From a virus: a DNA stretch of 43,574 bases. The stretch spans positions 1 to 43,574 of IMG/VR virus record IMGVR_UViG_3300037503_000007; one strand, written 5' to 3'. Positions 12,389-27,333 of the stretch are shown here, in pieces. Numbering within the stretch: the stretch's first letter is position 1; each line of letters opens with the position of its first letter. The notes under the pieces are model-generated. The model was not told where the DNA came from, made no database searches, and was given only the letters and a program-made list of their open reading frames with translations. The position numbers and the translations under genes were made by a program.

Positions 12389-12464
12389 TGGTGCCGGCGC
12401 CATGGGATCGAACCTGGGACCGCCCGCTTACGATGCGGGTGCTCTACCGCTGAGCTACGTCGGC
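12389..12464 (-). tRNA. tRNA-Thr, anticodon CGU
   Basis: Read on the minus strand, 76 bases fold as a tRNA: acceptor GCCGACG/CGCCGGC, D-stem GCTC/GAGC with loop AGCGGTA, anticodon stem CCCGC/GCGGG with loop ATCGTAA (anticodon CGT in DNA), T-loop TTCGATC, discriminator A and an encoded CCA. It would read ACG threonine codons, which are common in this genome. Two defects are visible: an A-C mismatch at position 5-68 and an extra base that bulges from the T-stem (CCAGG against CCATGG). It may be functional or a decaying copy. Confidence 0.8.
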
Positions 12465-13416: not shown

Positions 13417-13590
13417 TCATGCCGGCATCGGCACGACGTTGAGGAGGGCGCTACGCCGGGCCCGCAGCTCGCGGAACCGGGCCCGGACGTCGCCGACGTG
13501 CGGGACGCCGGCGACGAGCTCGCGGATCGCCCGGTTGAGCGCGGCCACCTCCCGGACGGAGTCCGGGAGGTCGCGCGTGGCGTCGGTCAC
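13417..13590 (-). CDS. Small helical protein, 57 residues
   Basis: Starts at GTG 13590, overlapping the stop of the upstream gene (GTGA), and ends at TGA 13417. The product is highly helical and charged (VREVAALNRAIRELVAG, then VRARFRELRARRSALLNV), as expected of a small coiled-coil or DNA-associated protein. Function unknown. Coupling to 13587..13973 supports the short frame. Confidence 0.62.
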   Translation of the reverse strand: MTDATRDLPDSVREVAALNRAIRELVAGVPHVGDVRARFRELRARRSALLNVVPMPA

Positions 13591-14045: not shown

Positions 14046-14101
14046 GGATCCACGAGCCATTCACGGGGCGCACGTCGGCCAGCTCCTCGAGGAGCCGATC
14101 G
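14046..14101 (-). repeat. Dispersed 56-bp element, copy 1
   Basis: Read on the minus strand this 56-bp segment (CGATCGGC at one end, GTGGATCC at the other) matches the plus strand at 37788-37843 at 46 of 56 positions without gaps. It sits in the gap between the genes at 13973 and 14134. It contains the palindromes CCTCGAGG and, partly outside, GGATCCGCGGATCC. Confidence 0.7.
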
Positions 14102-14133
14102 CGCCGGCGCCGCCGGCGCCCGACGTCGCGAAG

Positions 14134-14439
14134 CTATGCGCGGCGCACAGGGGCCGGGATGACGAGGGCGTAGGCTGCGGGCGGCGTTGGCGGCCACGCC
14201 GGCATCGGGTCGCGAAGGATCACCACGACGTCGCCGTTCGGGCGCTCGTGCATCTCGGGTGCGACCGTGCTCGGGTGCCGGCGATCGTCCACGATCACGT
14301 GGCCGCGGCCACGGCGGCGAAGCCAGCAGTCCCAGGCCCGCACGGCCGTTTCGAGGGCGCCGAGGACCGCGAGGGCGATCACGGCCACGATGATCGCGGC
14401 CTCGGTCGGATGGCCGTCGAAAAAGGCGAGCACGTCCAC
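14134..14439 (-). CDS. Small single-pass membrane protein
   Basis: The 101-residue product starts at GTG 14439; GAGG lies just upstream, right after the stop of the XF1762-type gene at 14451. It has one clear transmembrane helix near residues 13-32 (AAIIVAVIALAVLGALETAV) followed by a basic WLRRRGRGH, which places the C-terminal 60 residues in the cytoplasm. That part includes VIVDDRRHPSTVAPEMHERP and a proline-rich tail. Function unknown. Confidence 0.68.
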   Translation of the reverse strand: MDVLAFFDGHPTEAAIIVAVIALAVLGALETAVRAWDCWLRRRGRGHVIVDDRRHPSTVAPEMHERPNGDVVVILRDPMPAWPPTPPAAYALVIPAPVRRA

Positions 14440-14450
14440 GTGGTCGATCC

Positions 14451-15023
14451 TCAGTGAAGGGCCCGGTGCGGGGCGGAGCGCGTTCCGCTTGGCTCCCCAC
14501 GATCGCGGGTGATCAGACCGGCCGTAGGCATCGCACCGAAAGGGGCCGGCAAGGCGCACGGCCCGGCCGGGAACTCGGACCAAGACCCGAAGCCGTAGCG
14601 GTGCTTCGGACAGGTCGGATGATCGTCATGGCGCCGGCGGCTCGGGCGGTCCCAGGAACCGCCGCGGGTGGTGCCGAGATAGGTCCATCCGGACGCCCGA
14701 AGGCTTGCGCCGCTTTCGGTGTCGAGGATGTAGGTCAGGCCGCGCCGGTATCCCTTCGCGACGGCGGCACGACGGGCCGCGGCGTAGAGCATCGAGCAGG
14801 CGTTGAACGTGCCATCGGTGCACAGGCGGGTCACCTCGACGGTCAAGCCGTCGTCGAGGGCAGATGCGACCGGCCGGCCGACGATCGCGACGCCGACCAG
14901 GCGCCCTTCCCCGTCCTGGACCCCGTGTTGCCACAAGGCCCCCACGGGGGGCTTGTGGTGCCGGTGGTGCTCCCGGACGAAGGCGAAGGCTTGCCGCTGC
15001 GACAGCGGCCGCAGCTCGATCAC
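14451..15023 (-). CDS. XF1762-type protein (GNAT-like acyltransferase fold)
   Basis: The 190-residue protein shows a pattern known from the XF1762 family in phages and mobile elements: FVREHHRHHKPPVGALW (about residues 14-30), LVGVAIVGRPVASALDDG (about 40-57), EVTRLCTDGTFNACSMLYAA (about 61-80) and SLRASGWTYLG (about 105-115). Members are predicted to have a GNAT-like fold; substrate unknown. GTG 15023 is chosen because it gives VIELRPLSQRQAF, the usual family start, and overlaps the upstream stop (GTGA). The upstream in-frame extension is atypical and Arg-rich. The last 40 residues are unlike the family core. Confidence 0.82.
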   Translation of the reverse strand: MIELRPLSQRQAFAFVREHHRHHKPPVGALWQHGVQDGEGRLVGVAIVGRPVASALDDGLTVEVTRLCTDGTFNACSMLYAAARRAAVAKGYRRGLTYILDTESGASLRASGWTYLGTTRGGSWDRPSRRRHDDHPTCPKHRYGFGSWSEFPAGPCALPAPFGAMPTAGLITRDRGEPSGTRSAPHRALH

Positions 15024-15244
15024 CGGGCGTTGACCCGCGTCCACGTCCGGGGACAGCGTTCGCACCCTACCCGCTCGATCGTCACGCCGCGGGACTCGGT
15101 GAACGACAGGCACCGGGCCTTGGCGCCGTCGCGGACCCCGCCGCGGGGTCCGGCGGTGTCGTGCTGCTGCGGGCAGATGCAAGGCACGCGGCGAGCGCCA
15201 AGGATCGCGGCTCTCACGTCCGCGCGGTCGGTCGGAATTCCCAC
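15020..15244 (-). CDS. Small Cys-rich (zinc-ribbon-like) protein
   Basis: The 74-residue product starts at GTG 15244 with GGAG six bases upstream. It has two cysteine pairs, CICPQQH (about residues 22-28) and GCERCPRTW (about 60-68), spaced like a zinc ribbon. Its stop overlaps the start of the XF1762-type gene. Small zinc proteins of this kind often precede XF1762-type genes in alphaproteobacterial phages; partner function is inferred. Confidence 0.65.
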   Translation of the reverse strand: MGIPTDRADVRAAILGARRVPCICPQQHDTAGPRGGVRDGAKARCLSFTESRGVTIERVGCERCPRTWTRVNAR

Positions 15245-15391
15245 GGGTGCTCCGGGTTTGTGTGGTCGACGCGGGGCCGGTCTTTCATCGGCCGCTTAGC
15301 GGCACTCGGCTGGCGCTGATGCGACTTGGCGCGCGCAACAGAGGACTCCCCGGCCCTACCGTCCTGGGGGTCCACCGCGTCGATTCGGGAA

Positions 15392-15429
15392 GCTTGCATG
15401 CCCGCATGCGGGCATGTCGGCATGCAAGC
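15392..15429. repeat. Octamer array A: four GCATG boxes in 8-bp register
   Basis: GCATG occurs at 15396, 15404, 15412 and 15420, exactly 8 bases apart. The outer arms GCTTGCATGCC and GGCATGCAAGC are perfect inverted repeats, and CCCGCATGCGGG (15401-15412) is a perfect palindrome inside. The array lies just 3' of the recombinase gene (stop 15435). It matches arrays B, C and D in box and spacing. Confidence 0.9.
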
Positions 15430-15434
15430 CAATT

Positions 15435-16409
15435 TCAGAGGATGCCGGCGCCGGCGTGGTTTCGGAACTCACGGGCGCGGCGATCGTAAAGCTTGAGGGT
15501 CCGGATGTCCCGGTGAAGGGTTACGTCCATCACCCTGAGCATGTCGGCGCCGTTCGCGAGCGCCTCGGTCGCGAAGCCGGCCCGCAAGCTGTGGCCGGCG
15601 AAATCGTCGACGTCGTAGCCGGCAAGGCCGGCGTAGTGCTTGACGATGTTCGCAACCGACCGATCGCTAAGGCGCTCGCCGACGCGCCCGCCTTTCCGGA
15701 TCGACCGGAACACGGCGCCCTCGGTGATGCCCGCCGCGGTCAACCAGTCGTCGACCGCCCGGACGGGCTTGAGCTTCGAGCCGTTCGGAACGGCGATGGT
15801 CTGCCCCCTACCCTCCTGGTCGGTCTTGGACCGGCGGATATGGACCCGCAGGCCTTCGCGGGCGCGATCAAGGTCCGGGACGTCGAGGGCGACGATGTTC
15901 GATCGGCGCTGCGCGATGGCGAAGCCCAACAGCAGCAGCGCCCGATCGCGAATGCCGATCAGGGTCTCGGGCACGTGCCCGAGCATCTCGCGCAAGGTGT
16001 CGGCCACGGCCGGCGCCTTCTGCTTGACGCTCGCCCCGATCGTGCGGCGAAGGCCGCGCATCAGGGACTTGACCACCTCGGCGTTCGTCGGCGGTTCGCG
16101 GCCGACCCGGCGGTGCGCGAAGGCGATGGCCGCCGCGCGCCGGTCAATGGTCGAGACCTTCAGCCCCTTGTGTGCACATTGCGTCAGGTAGAGGGCTACG
16201 GTCTCGATCTCGGCCGGGAGGCAGCAAAGGCGGTGCCCGTCGCACCAGCCCTTGAAGTCCCGGAAATCGGATTCATAGGCCCGGCGCGTGGCCGGGGCAG
16301 TCTCGGCGAGCACGAAGCCATCGGCGGCGTCGCGCAGCGCGTCCAAGGCTTCATCGTCGACGTCGACGAGCTCGCCCGCCGGCGACCACGGCACCGGCAG
16401 ATTGTCCAA
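15435..16409 (-). CDS. Tyrosine recombinase (Cre/Xer-like integrase)
   Basis: The 324-residue site-specific recombinase has an N-terminal SAM-like DNA-binding domain (TRRAYESDFRDFKGWC near residues 40-56) and a C-terminal catalytic domain. Active-site residues can be placed: Arg in GFAIAQRRSNIVAL (about 170), Lys in RRSKTDQEG (about 195), His-x-x-Arg in GHSLRAGFAT (about 270-280), His in LHRDIRTLKLYDRR (about 300), and the Tyr nucleophile in the same stretch. The start is TTG 16409 with GAGGAG six bases upstream. It faces away from parA across octamer array B and has array A at its 3' end. The context favours multimer resolution of a plasmid prophage, but integration is possible. Confidence 0.93.
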   Translation of the reverse strand: MDNLPVPWSPAGELVDVDDEALDALRDAADGFVLAETAPATRRAYESDFRDFKGWCDGHRLCCLPAEIETVALYLTQCAHKGLKVSTIDRRAAAIAFAHRRVGREPPTNAEVVKSLMRGLRRTIGASVKQKAPAVADTLREMLGHVPETLIGIRDRALLLLGFAIAQRRSNIVALDVPDLDRAREGLRVHIRRSKTDQEGRGQTIAVPNGSKLKPVRAVDDWLTAAGITEGAVFRSIRKGGRVGERLSDRSVANIVKHYAGLAGYDVDDFAGHSLRAGFATEALANGADMLRVMDVTLHRDIRTLKLYDRRAREFRNHAGAGIL

Positions 16410-16453
16410 GGTCGCTCCTCGGCGTTTAATCCCGGGGCTTTACCTGCCCGTAA

Positions 16454-16509
16454 CCGGCATGCCTGCATGCTTGCATGCCGGCATATCAGCATGCCGGCAT
16501 GGAAGGATG
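16454..16509. repeat. Octamer array B: six GCATG boxes plus one degenerate, upstream of parA
   Basis: Boxes start at 16457, 16465, 16473, 16481 (GCATA), 16489 and 16497, with GGATG at 16505 as a degenerate seventh, all exactly 8 bases apart. The array ends 7 bases before the parA ATG (16517) and lies between the divergent recombinase and parA genes. It therefore covers the likely parA promoter/leader. Expected role: autoregulation and/or centromere. Confidence 0.92.
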
Positions 16510-16516
16510 CACCCCT

Positions 16517-17179
16517 ATGAAGATCATCGTGATTGCGAGCCAAAAGGGAGGCGCGGGGAAAACCACCCTCGCCGTCCACATGGCCGTGACGGCCGCCATG
16601 GGCGGTTTCCGCGTCGGCCTCATTGACCTTGACCCGCAGGCCTCCGCGACCAAGTGGGGCCGCCGGCGGCTCCGCGCCGGACACGCGCCCGAGATTGCGG
16701 TGACCGCCACGACGGCCGAACTCCTGGGCGGCGTCGTCGACGGGGCCCGCGCCTCCGGTGCGGACCTACTGCTGATCGACACGGCGCCGAGCGCCGATAG
16801 GGCCTCGTTGGTCGCGGCGCGGCTCGCGGACTTTCTCTTGATCCCCGTCCGGCCGGCAACCTTTGACCTTGAAGCGATCGAGGCGACCCGCGACGTGGCG
16901 GAACTCGCCCGACGCCCCGCGGCCGTCGTCATCAATGCGGCGCCGGTGCGCAGCAATATCGTGACCGAGGCGAGCGATGGCCTCGCCGCGGCCGGCGCCA
17001 CCATGGCACCGATCATCATTCACCAGCGCGTCGCGTTCAGCCACCCCATAGGCAACGGCGGTACGGCCATGAACTACGAGCCCGGAGGTAAGGCCGAATG
17101 CGAGGTTAGCGCCTTAACCCTGTGGGCATGCGGGCAAGCGGGCTTGCTTCCATGCGGGCATGCCGGCATTCCGGCATGA
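16517..17179 (+). CDS. parA: ParA-type partition ATPase (type Ib, no HTH)
   Basis: The 220-residue Walker ATPase has a deviant Walker A KGGAGKTT (residues 10-17, signature lysine at 10), Walker A'/switch LIDLDPQASATKW (about 38-51) and Walker B LLIDTAPSAD (about 83-92). The absence of an N-terminal DNA-binding domain makes it a small type Ib ParA, which normally works with a tiny RHH centromere-binding partner, here the next gene. It should bind nucleoid DNA and move the plasmid-prophage copies apart. The last 25 residues (WACGQAGLLPCGHAGIPA) are encoded by octamer array C and look like repeat-derived sequence rather than a normal ParA end. A longer start at 16475 would be translated through array B and is unlikely. 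Confidence 0.92.
   Translation: MKIIVIASQKGGAGKTTLAVHMAVTAAMGGFRVGLIDLDPQASATKWGRRRLRAGHAPEIAVTATTAELLGGVVDGARASGADLLLIDTAPSADRASLVAARLADFLLIPVRPATFDLEAIEATRDVAELARRPAAVVINAAPVRSNIVTEASDGLAAAGATMAPIIIHQRVAFSHPIGNGGTAMNYEPGGKAECEVSALTLWACGQAGLLPCGHAGIPA
17123..17178. repeat. Octamer array C: seven boxes at the parA/RHH boundary
   Basis: Boxes sit at 17126 (GCATG), 17134 (GCAAG), 17142 (GCTTG), 17150 (CCATG), 17158 (GCATG), 17166 (GCATT) and 17174 (GCATG): seven in strict 8-base steps, four of them degenerate. The array overlaps the last codons and the stop codon of parA and ends 18 bases before the ATG of the RHH gene. Confidence 0.88.
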
Positions 17180-17196
17180 TCGGGGGGAGGGAGCAC

Positions 17197-17478
17197 ATGG
17201 CCAAATCAGCACGTCGCCCGCCGGTTTTCCCGGCGACCGACCAGCCCGCTACGGCGTCGCCCGCGATGCCGGACACGCCGGCGAACACGCCGCCGCCGCG
17301 GTCGCAGCGCCCACCATCACGCCAGGGCAAGCGCCAGATCTCGCTTTCCGTCGACCCCGAGGTGCACCGGCAGCTTCGGACGTTGGCCGCCAAAGAGGAC
17401 AAGAGCCTCGAAGCTCTCGGCAAGGAAGCCCTAAACCTACTGTTCGCGCAGTACGGGCTGGCGAGGATCGCCGCTTAG
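17197..17478 (+). CDS. Ribbon-helix-helix DNA-binding protein, probable ParA partner
   Basis: The 93-residue protein has a disordered N-terminal tail (residues 1-43, Pro/Ala/Arg-rich) and a C-terminal RHH domain: beta strand KRQISLSVDPEV (about 45-56), helix 1 RQLRTLAAKEDK (about 58-69), helix 2 LEALGKEALNLLFAQYG (about 71-87). This layout, a flexible tail before an RHH fold encoded directly after a small ParA, matches ParG/omega-type centromere-binding proteins. The start ATG 17197 has GGGAGG upstream. MetJ, another RHH protein, binds tandem 8-bp boxes, which fits the octamer arrays. Autoregulation is therefore likely; binding is inferred. Confidence 0.87.
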   Translation: MAKSARRPPVFPATDQPATASPAMPDTPANTPPPRSQRPPSRQGKRQISLSVDPEVHRQLRTLAAKEDKSLEALGKEALNLLFAQYGLARIAA

Positions 17479-17771
17479 TTGAGCGCCGGAAGGATGCGGC
17501 CCGGGGGCCGCTCGCGCTTCCTACGCTCGACGATCACGGTACGGCCGCAGATCGTCTGCGGCCCGGTGAAGAACACGTAGCCGACCGGCTTTGCGGCCGG
17601 GTGCCGCTTCGGGTCCGCGATCTCGCGGGCCCGACGCTCGGCCGTTTCCGCCAAGGCGTCCAGGTCGATCATGAGCTGCTCGGCCGACCCGCCGTCGCGG
17701 AACTTGATGCGACGTGCGAGCGCCGCGAAGGCGCGGACCTCGGCTGCGGCGTCGATCCGGGAAACAAACAT
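17475..17771 (-). CDS. Hypothetical protein
   Basis: The 98-residue protein converges on the RHH gene with a 4-base overlap of the two ends. It has a helical first half (AAAEVRAFAALARRIKF, then QLMIDLDALAETAERRAREI) and a basic C-terminus (GRTVIVERRKRERPPGR). No family is recognised. Its ATG directly follows the stop of 17772..18116. Confidence 0.65.
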   Translation of the reverse strand: MFVSRIDAAAEVRAFAALARRIKFRDGGSAEQLMIDLDALAETAERRAREIADPKRHPAAKPVGYVFFTGPQTICGRTVIVERRKRERPPGRILPALN

Positions 17772-18239: not shown

Positions 18240-19172
18240 TCAAGCGGCCCGCGCGATCCTCCTGCGCGGGGCAACGCGCCGCGGCGCCGGCACGATCGCG
18301 GGCTGCGTGTCGGGCAGGACGCGCGGGGTCTTTTCGACCTCGCCCGCCCACGGAAGGCGCGCGGCAGTCGGTCCGGTGATGACGATGCTGGAAAGATAGG
18401 GTCGCATGCGGTTCGGCTCGTCCGGCGTGGGGTCGGGGACTTGGCGGGAAAGCACCTCGGCGAGGTGGGCGAGGGCGGCCCACCAGACGGCGTAGGCGGC
18501 GCGGCACTCGACGACGCCGGCGGGGCTCGGGGACCATTTGAGGGGCGAGAACGCCCCGAGGGGATAACCGGCCTTGCCGCGGTGATGGCAGGTCACCTCG
18601 GCTTGCACCGTGCGGGCGACACGGGAGACCAGGGCGCCGGTGTCCGGATCACGGGTCTCGACGTAGCCTACCACCCGCTCCTCGGTGCGGCAGACGATCG
18701 GGCGGTTGTTGTTGCCGAGGATCGCCTCGGGCACGGGCGCATCGAGGAGGGCGGGACGAGACCCGAGGCGGGCGCACATAACGACGTGGCCGGCCGCTTG
18801 GTCGCGGATTTCCGACTTGAGCTTGGCGACGTCGAGGTAGGGGCGGGCGGGCCCGCTCCTCGCCGGCGCCACGAGCTCGTCGAGGCCAAGGGGCACGTCC
18901 GATATGTCGAGATCGCCCGGCGTCATGTCGCGCACGGCCTGCTCGATCAGAAGCGCATCGGGGTGGGGATCGCCGAGCGCCATCGGGAACCCGGGCTCAC
19001 GGGAAAAGTCGATCGCCGTCCCCAGGACCGCCATGGCAAACATCGGCGACACCGATGGAAAGCCGGTCGGCGGTCGGCCCCGGCCGCGGTCCTTTGTCTG
19101 CTTCGGGAGTTCATGCACGAAGGTTCGATGCAAGGCCGCCTCGATCCCGAGAACGCGCCTTACCGTGGCCAT
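18240..19172 (-). CDS. Hypothetical protein, 310 residues
   Basis: I chose ATG 19172 (MATVRRVLGIEAAL), with AGGGG close upstream, over an in-frame GTG at 19193. The protein has an N-terminal helical part, a basic RGRGRPPTGFPSVSP linker and a central helical region with conserved-looking LDVAKLKSEIRDQAAGHVVM. Two histidines and cysteines occur in TCHHRGKAG. The C-terminal 40 residues are basic and proline-rich. No family is recognised. Position between the Rep-like region and the partition region suggests a plasmid-maintenance or regulatory role, but nothing in the sequence proves it. Confidence 0.7.
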   Translation of the reverse strand: MATVRRVLGIEAALHRTFVHELPKQTKDRGRGRPPTGFPSVSPMFAMAVLGTAIDFSREPGFPMALGDPHPDALLIEQAVRDMTPGDLDISDVPLGLDELVAPARSGPARPYLDVAKLKSEIRDQAAGHVVMCARLGSRPALLDAPVPEAILGNNNRPIVCRTEERVVGYVETRDPDTGALVSRVARTVQAEVTCHHRGKAGYPLGAFSPLKWSPSPAGVVECRAAYAVWWAALAHLAEVLSRQVPDPTPDEPNRMRPYLSSIVITGPTAARLPWAGEVEKTPRVLPDTQPAIVPAPRRVAPRRRIARAA

Positions 19173-19280
19173 CTGGCCCCTGTCTGACCCCACCGTTAAC
19201 CCTTGTTTAGTTTTCGTTCTGAGGCCGGGTCGCGTGCCGGTGGTCCCACTGTCAAGAGGGAATTTTCCGATGCGACAGAA

Positions 19281-22160: not shown

Positions 22161-22551
22161 CGATCGGGCTCTCGGGCCCGCCGATCATCACGTGGCCGCC
22201 CGCATCATGGCCCGCCGCCGCGAGCTGCAGGTCCGCCAAACCTACGTGGCCCGGATCGTCGGCGTGAGCTTCCAGCAGTTCGGGAACTACGAGCGGGGCC
22301 TCGATCGGATCACGGCCGGCCGGCTTTGGCAGATCGCCGGGGCGCTCGGCGTGCCGGTAGCCTACTTTTACGAGGGCCTGCCGGTGGTCGCCGGCGACGT
22401 CCCGGCGCCGCCGCCGGCGCCGGCGGCAGGTGGCGGCGCCACCAGCGCGCCACGGCGCCTGCCAGGGTCCGCCCCCAAAGGGCCCGCCAAGCCTTCACCC
22501 TCCAAGCGCGCACGAAAGCGTTCAGCAGCCGCCGCCGGCGGGGCGGCGTGA
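22135..22551 (+). CDS. XRE-family transcriptional regulator, repressor candidate
   Basis: The 138-residue protein has an N-terminal HTH of the XRE/HTH_3 family: HHVAARIMARRRELQVRQ (about residues 18-35), VARIVGVSFQQFGNYERG (about 39-56, recognition helix) and ITAGRLWQIAGALGVPVAYF (about 60-80). The last 55 residues are Pro/Ala/Lys-rich and basic. ATG 22135 has GGGGAG upstream. This fold is common in prophage repressors and in alphaproteobacterial regulators. It is transcribed with the HerA-like ATPase (stop and start overlap as TGATG). Confidence 0.9.
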   Translation: MKKIKRKPSDRALGPADHHVAARIMARRRELQVRQTYVARIVGVSFQQFGNYERGLDRITAGRLWQIAGALGVPVAYFYEGLPVVAGDVPAPPPAPAAGGGATSAPRRLPGSAPKGPAKPSPSKRARKRSAAAAGGAA

Positions 22552-25073
22552 TGGCGCGTAGGTCGACGAAAGCCGCCGCGGCGCCGGCGACGATCGCCCC
22601 CCGTGTCGTCACGATCGGAAAACTCGCTGATGGTGGCGGTCCCGCGACCCTCGACATTGACGTACTCCTGACAACGCGGCTCGGCATTCAGGCGATCAGC
22701 CGCGCCGGCAAAAGCGCGACCATCCGGACGATCTGCGAGCAAAGCTTCGGTCTAGTCCAGCATATCATCCTGGACGGCGAGGGCGAATTCTACACTCTGC
22801 GCGAAAAGCACCCCTATGTGCTTGCCGGTGACGACGGCGACTTTCCGGTGACGGTGGAGAACGCGGAAGCTCTCGCCCTCGCCCTCCTTGAGCACGGCTT
22901 GTCCGCCGTCGTGAACCTTCACCCGCTGCGCATGGGCGCCCGTCGCATCTTCATCGCCCGCTTTATCGAGGCGATGATCGCGGCGCCGCAGCGCCTATGG
23001 CACCCGGTCCTCGTCGTGATCGACGAGGCGCAAAAGTACGCCCCGGAAGGGGCGAAGGTTGAGAGTTCGGAGGCGATCGTCGACCTGATGGACCAGGGCG
23101 GCAAGCGCGGGTTCGCGTGCATCCTCGCGACGCAGCGCCTCGCCCGCCTTCACAAGGATGCTTCGGGGGGGCTCGCGAATTGGCTGCTCGGGTTGGTGGT
23201 CCAGGACGTCGACCGCCGGCGCGCATGCAGCTACCTCGGGTTCACGCCCGGGTCGGCCGAGGGACGGTCGCTTGCCGATCTGGCGGCGGGGACCTTTTAC
23301 GGCGTGGGCCCGGCGATCACGCAGAAGCCGGCGCTCATCCGCATCGCCCGCCCCGAGACCACCCACGTCAAGTCCGGCGAGGCCTCGGCGCCGACGCCGC
23401 CGGCGCCCGCGGCGATGAAGGAGCTTTTCGCCGCGCTGCGCGCCGCGGCCGGGCCGGTGGACGAGGAACGGGGTCGACTCGATACCGACCGCGATTGGCG
23501 GCCGGGCGCGACGTCGCCGGCGCCGGCCGCCCCCCGGGCCGCGCCCGACGAGATCGCCGCGGCGGTACGAAAGGGCACCGAGACCGGAATGGTGATCGGG
23601 GACCAGCAAGGCTACGAGCGGGGGCGGCGGGAAGCCGAGGACGTCGCGGCCGTGACCTTCCTTCGCCTCCACCAGCAGAGTCTCGAGCTTGCCCAGGCGG
23701 CCCAGGCTTTGGCCGCCGAGGCCGGCGCCTGGTTGCGCGGGCACGGCTGGATGGAGGCCCCTACGGCGCCCGTAGGCGGCCCGGCGCCCGCGCCGGCCCT
23801 CCCCGGGCCCGCAAGCCGCGCCCCGGGCCCTACGGCGCCCGTAGGCGGCCCGGCGCCCGCGCCGGCCCTCCCCAGGCCCGCAAGCCGCGCCCCGGGCGCT
23901 ACGGCGCCCGTGGCGGCCCCCGCGGCCCCGAATGGCGCGGATGGCCCGGCGCCCGCGCCGCGGGCCCCTAAGGGCCGCGGCGGGCGGTCCCGGATGGGGA
24001 TGGCGCCCATGCCCGGGACCGCCACGATCACCGACCGCCTCCTTGCCACGCTGACCCGGCCGCGAACCTGGGCCGAGGCCGCGGCCATCGCCGGCGTGAC
24101 CCCCGAGACGCCCCGGGTCCGCCAAGCGCAAAAGAAGCTCCGTGAGTCCGGGAAGGTGCGCGACGTCGGCGGGGTGGTGACGGCGATCGACCCGCCGGCG
24201 GCGGCGATCGACGACAGCCCCGCCGCGGTCCGCGCGACCTGGATGGCCCGGCTCGGCGAGGTGCCGGGCGAGATCCTCGCTGCTCTTGCCGATCGGTCGG
24301 ACGGCCTCCCGGTGGACAAGTCGACGGTGGCGGAATGGGCCGGCCAGAAGGCGGGCACGCCGCGATTCCGCGAGGGCCTTCAACTCTTGCGGCGGAACGG
24401 TGCGATCCTGGAGTCACGGCATCGCGTGCAGCTCACCCCGCCGTTCGGCGGGAAGGGCGGCGACATAGGCGCGGAGGAGGACGGGGCGTCGGCCGCGGCG
24501 GCCGATCATCGGCAGACCGAGGCGCGGCGCCCCGCGGCCGAGCGGCCGGCGCGGAAGCCCGCGGCCGAGCGGCCGGCGCCGTCCGCGGCGGCCGACGCCG
24601 GCGGGCAACGCGGGATGGTCCTGAACGCGATCGCTTGGGCCGAGCGGTCGGGAATCCTCGCGGTCCGCGAACTCGTGGCGGTGATCGTCGGCATGCAACC
24701 GGATTCGCCGGTGCTGCGCATGCAATTGCGGAAGCTCGAAACCGCCGGTCTCGTGACGACGGCCGCGGACGGGGCGGTGCTCCAACTGACCGACAAGGGG
24801 CAGAGCCACGCGACCGTCCCCGATCGCCCGCTCGATCACGCCGCCTTGGTCGAGGCGGCCCTCGGCCGGATGCCGAAGCAATCGGGCGCGATGCTCCGGG
24901 AGCTCGTCCGTGTCCACCCGAAGCGCGTCGACCTTCCGACGCTCGCCAAGCGGCTCGGCATGGACCCGGACTCGCCAGTGGTCCGGATGAACGCCGGCCG
25001 GCTTCACAAGCTCGGTCTCGCGACCGACCCGAAGGCGCCGCCGATCGCGGCGTCCGACGTGCTTTTCCCGTGA
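22551..25073 (+). CDS. HerA/VirB4-like ATPase with tandem winged-helix-like C-terminal segments
   Basis: The 840-residue protein starts at ATG 22551, overlapping the XRE stop. Residues 1-300 form a HerA-like (DUF87/DUF853-type) ATPase: P-loop-like QAISRAGKSATIR (about 47-59, the usual first glycine is absent), LDGEGEFYTLRE (about 74-85), Walker B PVLVVIDEAQKYAP (about 152-165) and GFACILATQRLARLHKD (about 188-205). A 69-bp tandem repeat encodes a Pro/Ala-rich linker (about 400-460). The rest contains at least three winged-helix-like segments (e.g. ITDRLLATLTRPRTWAEAAA and GMVLNAIAWAERSGILAVRE). HerA ATPases translocate DNA, so a replication, segregation or mobilisation role is plausible; unproven. 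Confidence 0.83.
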   Translation: MARRSTKAAAAPATIAPRVVTIGKLADGGGPATLDIDVLLTTRLGIQAISRAGKSATIRTICEQSFGLVQHIILDGEGEFYTLREKHPYVLAGDDGDFPVTVENAEALALALLEHGLSAVVNLHPLRMGARRIFIARFIEAMIAAPQRLWHPVLVVIDEAQKYAPEGAKVESSEAIVDLMDQGGKRGFACILATQRLARLHKDASGGLANWLLGLVVQDVDRRRACSYLGFTPGSAEGRSLADLAAGTFYGVGPAITQKPALIRIARPETTHVKSGEASAPTPPAPAAMKELFAALRAAAGPVDEERGRLDTDRDWRPGATSPAPAAPRAAPDEIAAAVRKGTETGMVIGDQQGYERGRREAEDVAAVTFLRLHQQSLELAQAAQALAAEAGAWLRGHGWMEAPTAPVGGPAPAPALPGPASRAPGPTAPVGGPAPAPALPRPASRAPGATAPVAAPAAPNGADGPAPAPRAPKGRGGRSRMGMAPMPGTATITDRLLATLTRPRTWAEAAAIAGVTPETPRVRQAQKKLRESGKVRDVGGVVTAIDPPAAAIDDSPAAVRATWMARLGEVPGEILAALADRSDGLPVDKSTVAEWAGQKAGTPRFREGLQLLRRNGAILESRHRVQLTPPFGGKGGDIGAEEDGASAAAADHRQTEARRPAAERPARKPAAERPAPSAAADAGGQRGMVLNAIAWAERSGILAVRELVAVIVGMQPDSPVLRMQLRKLETAGLVTTAADGAVLQLTDKGQSHATVPDRPLDHAALVEAALGRMPKQSGAMLRELVRVHPKRVDLPTLAKRLGMDPDSPVVRMNAGRLHKLGLATDPKAPPIAASDVLFP
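23761..23911 (+). repeat. 69-bp tandem repeat in the ATPase gene
   Basis: CTACGGCGCCCGT begins at 23761, 23830 and 23899, a period of 69 bases (23 codons) with two nearly identical full copies and a truncated third. It encodes a Pro/Ala-rich flexible linker and keeps the frame. Confidence 0.9.
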
Positions 25074-27254: not shown

Positions 27255-27278
27255 CCGGCATGCGCGCATGCCGGCATG
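27255..27278. repeat. Octamer array D: three GCATG boxes, far from parA
   Basis: GCATG at 27258, 27266 and 27274, exactly 8 bases apart (CCGGCATG, CGCGCATG, CCGGCATG). It lies in the convergent intergenic region between the rightward operon and the lysis genes, beside a strong terminator and 10 kb from parA. Confidence 0.85.
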
Positions 27279-27291
27279 CCTGAAACGCGAA

Positions 27292-27333
27292 AAGCGCCTC
27301 GCCGGGGCCCCGGGGGGCCGCGGCGAGGCGCTT
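27292..27333. terminator. Strong convergent terminator at the end of the late and early operons
   Basis: AAGCGCCTCGCCG (27292-27304) pairs perfectly with CGGCGAGGCGCTT (27321-27333), 13 bp, with an inner G/C hairpin. On the minus strand TTTTCGCGTTTC follows. It ends the leftward lysis genes and may also stop the rightward operon. Confidence 0.8.

Follow-up and report, generated by a model that had tools for sequence, protein, structure and literature searches.

A probable type Ib-like partition cassette with GCATG octamer arrays in a tailed phage, and the 8-base register found at related ParA-RHH loci

Type Ib partition systems are defined by a ParA of 192-308 amino acids (aa) without an N-terminal DNA-binding domain and by an adaptor of 46-131 aa (PMC3235114). 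Herein, we describe a locus of this kind in the virus record IMGVR_UViG_3300037503_000007, whose whole 43,574-bp stretch is called the window below. It comprises parA, a gene for a ribbon-helix-helix (RHH) protein, and four arrays (A to D; Table 1) of GCATG boxes placed every 8 bp, whose phase-shifted repeat unit is the palindromic consensus GGCATGCC. Taken as a whole, the locus is very probably a type Ib-like partition cassette of a tailed phage, in which the octamer arrays serve as operator and centromere for the RHH protein.

One described counterpart is the type Ib plasmid pMF1 of Myxococcus fulvus, where ParB of the parCAB system footprints the upstream iterons and shifts the sites ItA to ItF, made of units like AGATGTCT (PMC3235114). 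In the pMF1 sequence, ItA, which had been footprinted, and ItB, which had been shifted, proved to be 8-base arrays (scores 53 and 61, with 8 as the best period), and a matrix from three ItB units found arrays at six places, equal to the number of published sites: near 13514 (in pMF1.14), at 14078-14134 (in the putative resolvase gene pMF1.16), at 14939-14955 (after pMF1.16), at 15855, and at ItA and ItB. pMF1 resembles the window in joining ParA to a small DNA-binding ParB and in having arrays of imperfect 8-base palindromes before and after the operon and dispersed, some of them at a resolvase gene, whereas it differs in its box, in the additional gene parC and in being a plasmid instead of a phage. 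The two ParA proteins share 27% identity over 204 aa. Since pMF1 ParB is weakly similar to the RHH profile (E 3e-5, two-sequence search) and has no match at E<=0.01 to PF20605, the family matched by the window RHH protein, pMF1 anchors the comparison by system type and register and not by close homology.

The type Ib system of the Psychrobacter plasmid pP62BP1 has 17 adjacent 8-bp repeats before parA, called apparently unique by its authors, and a related plasmid has repeats that end a resolvase-like gene (PMC3346939). Like the window, pP62BP1 has adjacent 8-bp repeats before parA, an RHH partner and more repeats elsewhere in the plasmid, for which protein binding is given as not known in the available part of that report (PMC3346939); its box, however, is AATACTCA in 17 identical copies, and its partner has a ParG domain. 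The ParF-ParG-parH system of TP228 shares with the window a small ParA, a flexible-tailed RHH protein and a short-box array before the operon (PMC7308502, PMC5016525), but its boxes are degenerate tetramers with AT-rich spacers, and it has ParG where the window has a PF20605 match. In the delta/omega system of pSM19035, an RHH protein likewise occupies contiguous short repeats overlapping promoters at several plasmid places, with one omega dimer per 7-bp repeat and at least four contiguous repeats needed for full ParA stimulation (PMC9499535). Its 7-bp heptads (WATCACW) are non-palindromic, in contrast to the palindromic octamers of the window, and the number of four repeats is reached by array A, and by B and C when degenerate units are counted. 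The parH site has an 8-base period. MetJ, whose RHH dimers sit side by side on tandem 8-bp palindromes (met boxes), is a metabolic repressor without ParA or a partition role.

Given that the pMF1 sites are 8-base arrays and that pP62BP1 has been described with 17 8-bp repeats, the kind of system is already known; the GGCATGCC box is new as far as the literature searched. That search, which covered the literature in part, found no report of a GCATG partition box, in line with the preliminary description of this locus, and none of a general 8-bp rule, although such a survey may exist.

The preliminary description had placed the GCATG boxes on an exact 8-base grid and had proposed a comparison with shuffled sequence, and both the box starts and the counts bear it out. 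GCATGN3GCATG had 14 matches on the two strands of the whole window, against a mean of 0.08 and a maximum of 1 in 100 shuffles. When GCATG-GCATG pairs were counted across the window by lag (5 to 30), eight fell at lag 8, six at 16, three at 24, one at 27 and none elsewhere, with a largest count of 2 at any lag in 200 dinucleotide shuffles; lag 7, the register of omega-type systems such as pSM19035, had none against the eight at lag 8. A weight matrix of 21 units, for which all four arrays had served as training units, was scanned over the whole window, and arrays A, B, C and D alone exceeded the highest of 60 shuffles (16.8). The core of the consensus is far stronger than its edges, the outer G being present in 13 of the 21 units and the outer C in 11.

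Array A has exact boxes starting at 15396, 15404, 15412 and 15420, and also forms an 18-nucleotide (nt) imperfect inverted repeat (15392-15409/15412-15429, 89%). In array B, exact boxes start at 16457, 16465, 16473, 16489 and 16497, and degenerate units at 16481 (GCATA) and 16505 (GGATG), the last of which overlaps the likely parA ribosome-binding site. The exact boxes of array C start at 17126, 17158 and 17174, with degenerate units at 17134 (GCAAG), 17142 (GCTTG), 17150 (CCATG) and 17166 (GCATT). Three arrays had been claimed around the recombinase, parA and RHH genes; A with four boxes and B with seven units stand, whereas C, credited with seven boxes, has seven units on the grid but only three exact ones. 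Because array C lies inside the parA 3' end, where it codes for the final residues of the protein, the last ParA residues are written in boxes; this C-terminal tail is not conserved in the ParA alignment. Array D (box starts 27258, 27266 and 27274) apparently lies where a run of + strand genes and a set of - strand genes both come to their ends. In this gap between the apparently converging runs, it is followed at 27292-27333 by a 20-bp inverted repeat that is strong (95%). Unlike many relatives, the window has no array near the RHH stop codon, and has A and D instead.

The protein matches agree with a type Ib assignment. The window ParA, at 220 aa, falls within the type Ib size range and lacks an N-terminal DNA-binding domain, its ParA-family matches beginning at residue 1. 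It matched the PHROG ParA-like family (1.1e-35) and Pfam AAA_31 (2.2e-17), and the top solved structures for a 7-row ParA family profile were ParA 5u1g (1.4e-25) and ParF 4dzz (2.7e-25). The NCBIfam equivalog NF041546 (ParA_partition) was the best of 16 matches listed, at 159.4 bits, below its curated cut-off of 180. The RHH gene starts 17 bp past parA, and its 93-aa product, with a predicted tail, has the size and position of a type Ib adaptor. Array B supplies the repeat array before the operon, and relatives have the same register.

The RHH protein matched PF20605 (Antitox_RHH) over residues 42-91 at 1.6e-15, with a score of 57.4 bits (58.2 in a second scan), above the curated cut-off of 27.2. 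It had no match to ParG of Pfam, and PF20605 was the sole family among the matches listed at E<=0.001. In an AlphaFold model with a predicted template modelling score of 0.45, residues 1-30 have a predicted local distance difference test (pLDDT) score of about 60, and helices 54-67 and 71-85 are confident. The low pLDDT suggests, without proof, a flexible N-terminal tail, and the disordered tail that had been described ahead of the RHH domain fits this model, in which low-confidence residues precede an RHH-like core at about residues 42-91. The core aligned with many RHH proteins, Arc and CopG among them, with Z up to 6.5, and less well with omega (Z 4.8); ParG (1p94) ranked 43 among many RHH proteins, with Z 4.5 and a root-mean-square deviation of 10.1 over 68 residues. 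Since Z < 8 can mean a common arrangement alone, the alignments agree with the RHH fold and single out no family. Foldseek with the RHH model gave no match at E<=0.001, and the RHH sequence on its own, searched against solved structures, gave nothing at E<=5. Among viral contigs, 29 candidate stretches were considered as direct relatives of the RHH protein, and none was confirmed.

Among the matches listed, the closest ParA-RHH pairs lie on plasmids of Methylobacterium, Pleomorphomonas, Nostoc, Roseomonas and others. These pairs were drawn from the best 40 plasmid ParA matches of 4261 records; 20 loci were fetched and used, five before the scanning rule was set and 15 after, and a 16th later locus (L310) came from another search. 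When the flanks of the viral locus L082 and of five plasmid relatives were written in rows of eight, arrays in 8-base register appeared, built of other boxes. The scan took 220 bp upstream of parA and determined which repeat period from 5 to 15 scored best, and each locus had its own dinucleotide shuffles. In the first scan, three of 167 loci, L082 among them, were left out for having <120 bp upstream; 18 loci from genome searches (L292-L309) entered no count. A clear RHH match (E<0.001) was present at 31 loci, counting the window; period 8 was best in 25 of them, and 23 were significant at 0.05, 22 of these at period 8 and one at 7. By comparison, 99 loci without an RHH match at E<1 had 8 as the best period in 20 cases, and nine of their 24 significant periods were 8. 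Another 34 loci, with RHH matches at E 0.001 to 1, were placed in neither group, and 17 of them had 8 as the best period.

The 16 plasmid loci fetched after the rule was set gave period 8 in 14 cases, including all 11 significant ones. Combined with the window and pMF1, period 8 was best in 40 of 48 loci and in 27 of 34 clusters at 70% ParA identity; without these two, it was best in 38/46 loci and 25/32 clusters, against 30/288 control segments drawn elsewhere in the same loci. The Fisher p of about 1e-23 for 38/46 versus 30/288 overstates independence because the loci are related, and the cluster count is the fairer measure. The preliminary description had named the absence of arrays beside related parA-RHH pairs as one refutation, and the 38 of 46 loci speak in its favour. 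Three of five further loci were also best at 8, including that of the protelomerase-bearing Halomonas phage phiHAP-1, where an 8-bp array (p=0.002) precedes the conserved part of the partition gene and the annotated start lies further upstream. Significant arrays were found at loci from Pseudomonadota, Cyanobacteriota and Myxococcota, and the box sequence differs among systems that share the register.

Arrays also recur at other positions. At the parA/RHH junction, where the window has array C, period 8 was best in 21 of 48 loci, 16 of them significantly. With matrices built from upstream or junction arrays, the same box was found near the RHH stop codon, at most about 35 bp from it, in 17 of 38 loci, pMF1 included (L130 was added to this set by hand though its upstream array was not significant); this recurrence supports the box as belonging to the system. 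On a 64-kb Roseomonas gilardii plasmid, of which 50 kb were examined, the five array clusters found are all no more than 2 kb from parA. A plasmid of Nostoc sp. UHCC 0302 has a second RHH gene without an adjoining parA (L131:544-822, - strand), and upstream of it the parA-RHH array matrix found an 8-bp array (L357:4822-4846). The GCATG triple was also tried as a marker in viral contigs and rejected: it occurs in at least 118 stretches, among which, in the matches listed, L082 alone has ParA and RHH matches and L082 alone has an open reading frame with a Walker motif within 1500 bases of the triple. Since L082 is the sole stretch listed with a cassette, a bare GCATG triple is not diagnostic.

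The locus counts suggest that the 8-bp register is common rather than unique to pP62BP1, and as a general rule it is probably new and easy to test. On balance, we lean towards regarding it as a common grammar of RHH-read partition sites in phages and plasmids of at least three phyla (those named above), in which the octamer would drift or be swapped to give a private address that sets incompatibility, and in which the arrays would lie at recurring gene ends, namely before parA, at its 3' end and at the stop codon of the RHH gene.

For the window itself, the proposal that the boxes are the operators and centromere of a type Ib system gains comparative support from the 38 of 46 loci and from the pMF1 sites, while binding and partition in this phage would follow by comparison. 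What is directly observed is the register, which relatives share, together with the gene families and the tail-plus-RHH anatomy of the locus. By analogy with omega, one RHH dimer would bind each GGCATGCC octamer, and dimers would stack side by side along the array through their RHH domains, as in omega or MetJ. Array B is the best candidate for both operator and main centromere: it would autoregulate the parA-RHH operon, and perhaps also control the divergent recombinase gene, while arrays C, A and D would be secondary sites, contributing to the partition complex or adjusting expression. Once the RHH protein is bound to an array, its N-terminal tail would contact nucleoid ParA and stimulate the ParA ATPase. 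From the cassette alone, we infer that the phage may be kept as a plasmid prophage, and if it is a low-copy plasmid, its genome would follow the ParA gradient into both daughter cells.

Several observations weigh against this interpretation. Of the window proteins, 30 were scanned (PHROGs for 28, Pfam for 15), and no replication initiator was recognised among them, which leaves the plasmid state of the phage conjectural. Binding of the RHH protein to the boxes, and partition in this phage, are judged from sequence and stay presumptive. Array D has three boxes. Eight of the 46 loci have a best period other than 8; among 39 significant control segments, 11 are at period 8, some of which may be real extra arrays; and of the remaining two of the five further loci, one has an 8/9 tie and the other, a ParG-annotated Zymomonas locus, has no significant period. 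A link between the outward beta-strand residues of the RHH protein and the box is only suggestive. Among distant pairs (RHH identity <0.35), the mean similarity of the boxes was 0.49 where all three residues were shared (n=17), 0.40 where two were (n=39), 0.43 for one (n=219) and 0.38 for none (n=551), in a comparison that kept near-identical loci and was made without a shuffle control; L129 and L319 have a common triple with a TGTCGACA-like box, and L212 has the triple without that box. The recombinase, finally, may serve dimer resolution or integration, and could be an integrase.

It is improbable, though worth weighing, that the arrays are operators alone and that the RHH protein is an autorepressor or antitoxin-like regulator with no centromere function. 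The Pfam family is named as antitoxin-like, arrays B and C lie at the expected positions of the parA and RHH promoters, and omega arrays likewise overlap promoters (PMC9499535). The partner gene, however, encodes a ParA ATPase, and neither of the two presumed genes that follow the RHH gene matched Pfam or PHROGs; hence no known toxin is seen there, and a novel one is possible. Moreover, promoters would not be expected at A, downstream of the recombinase stop, or at D, which apparently sits where gene runs converge, and pMF1 ParB sites also occur inside genes. Chance, or a compositional artefact of a GC-rich genome, has next to no claim: the window is 70% GC and control segments have periodicities of their own, but these are mostly multiples of 3, whereas 17 of the 18 GCATG pairs counted between lags 5 and 30 are separated by a multiple of 8, the 14 spaced pairs compare with 0.08 expected, and relatives show the same register with quite different boxes.

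We consider it very unlikely that the boxes serve replication as iterons or are repeats targeted by a different protein, be it an initiator or the recombinase, with A and B as the recombinase site. A and B do flank the recombinase gene, A forms the inverted repeat noted above, and a putative resolvase gene of pMF1 has one array inside it and another directly behind it. Arrays C and D, by contrast, are away from the recombinase, and none of seven recombinase queries matched the DNA examined from 28 of 38 array loci. The recombinase itself matched Pfam Phage_integrase (4.7e-17) and the PHROG integrase family (3.7e-18), with NCBIfam XerC/XerD matches below their cut-offs. Its relatives in 28 viral loci, several of them short, were accompanied by a ParA match in one and an RHH match in none, which argues against recombinase sites; on these counts the recombinase was rejected as a part of the system, and because a ParA match was found at one locus only, it may be an integrase. 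Among 10 loci with arrays and a recombinase match, the array lies beside the recombinase in the window and pMF1 alone and not in the other eight, so such adjacency is not a rule. The position of arrays in or beside a recombinase gene may be coincidence, or may link partition with dimer resolution.

The remaining gene content of the window is that of a tailed phage, with terminase, portal, head protease, major head protein, head-tail adaptor, tape measure and tail fibre. The cassette has a divergent layout at 15.4-17.5 kb, with the recombinase gene on the - strand facing away from parA and then the RHH gene on the + strand. A consensus scan found no sigma-70-type promoters in 15300-17700. For the neighbouring gene at 18240-19193, the search for relatives gave a single weak match. 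Elsewhere, 14451-15182 (- strand) weakly matches a Mom DNA-modification family (E 0.0017, below the Pfam cut-off), a 915-aa protein at 22326-25073 (+ strand) has a HerA/DUF87-type helicase match (2.3e-6) and a weak terminase-like PHROG match, and the phage carries a tRNA-Thr (CGT) gene at 12389-12464 (- strand).

Table 1. Features of the candidate partition locus and its octamer arrays in the window.
Feature	Position	Strand	Remarks
Array A	15393..15424		4 exact boxes in 8-bp register, 10 bp beyond the recombinase stop
Tyrosine recombinase, Xer-like, 324 aa	15435..16409	-	Pfam, PHROG and NCBIfam matches
Array B	16454..16509		7 units, 5 of them exact; lies between the starts of the recombinase gene and parA
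parA, 220-aa Walker-type partition ATPase	16517..17179	+	PHROG, Pfam and structure-profile matches
Array C	17123..17178		7 units on the grid, 3 of them exact; within the 3' end of parA, before the RHH gene
RHH adaptor (ParB/ParG-like), 93 aa	17197..17478	+	Pfam PF20605, structure model
Array D	27255..27278		3 exact boxes, 10 kb from the cassette

The phage cassette looks like an ordinary type Ib-like system with a new octamer, and the comparative result matters more. It joins the separate reports on pMF1 and pP62BP1 under one rule and offers a simple route to propose centromeres beside ParA-RHH pairs. If the rule is true, the centromeres of uncharacterised phage-plasmids would be readable from sequence, and it may be possible to learn a code by which the RHH beta strand recognises the octamer. 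The differing octamers form a natural set in which the DNA choice of the RHH beta strand, and the origin of incompatibility groups among phage-plasmids, could be followed.

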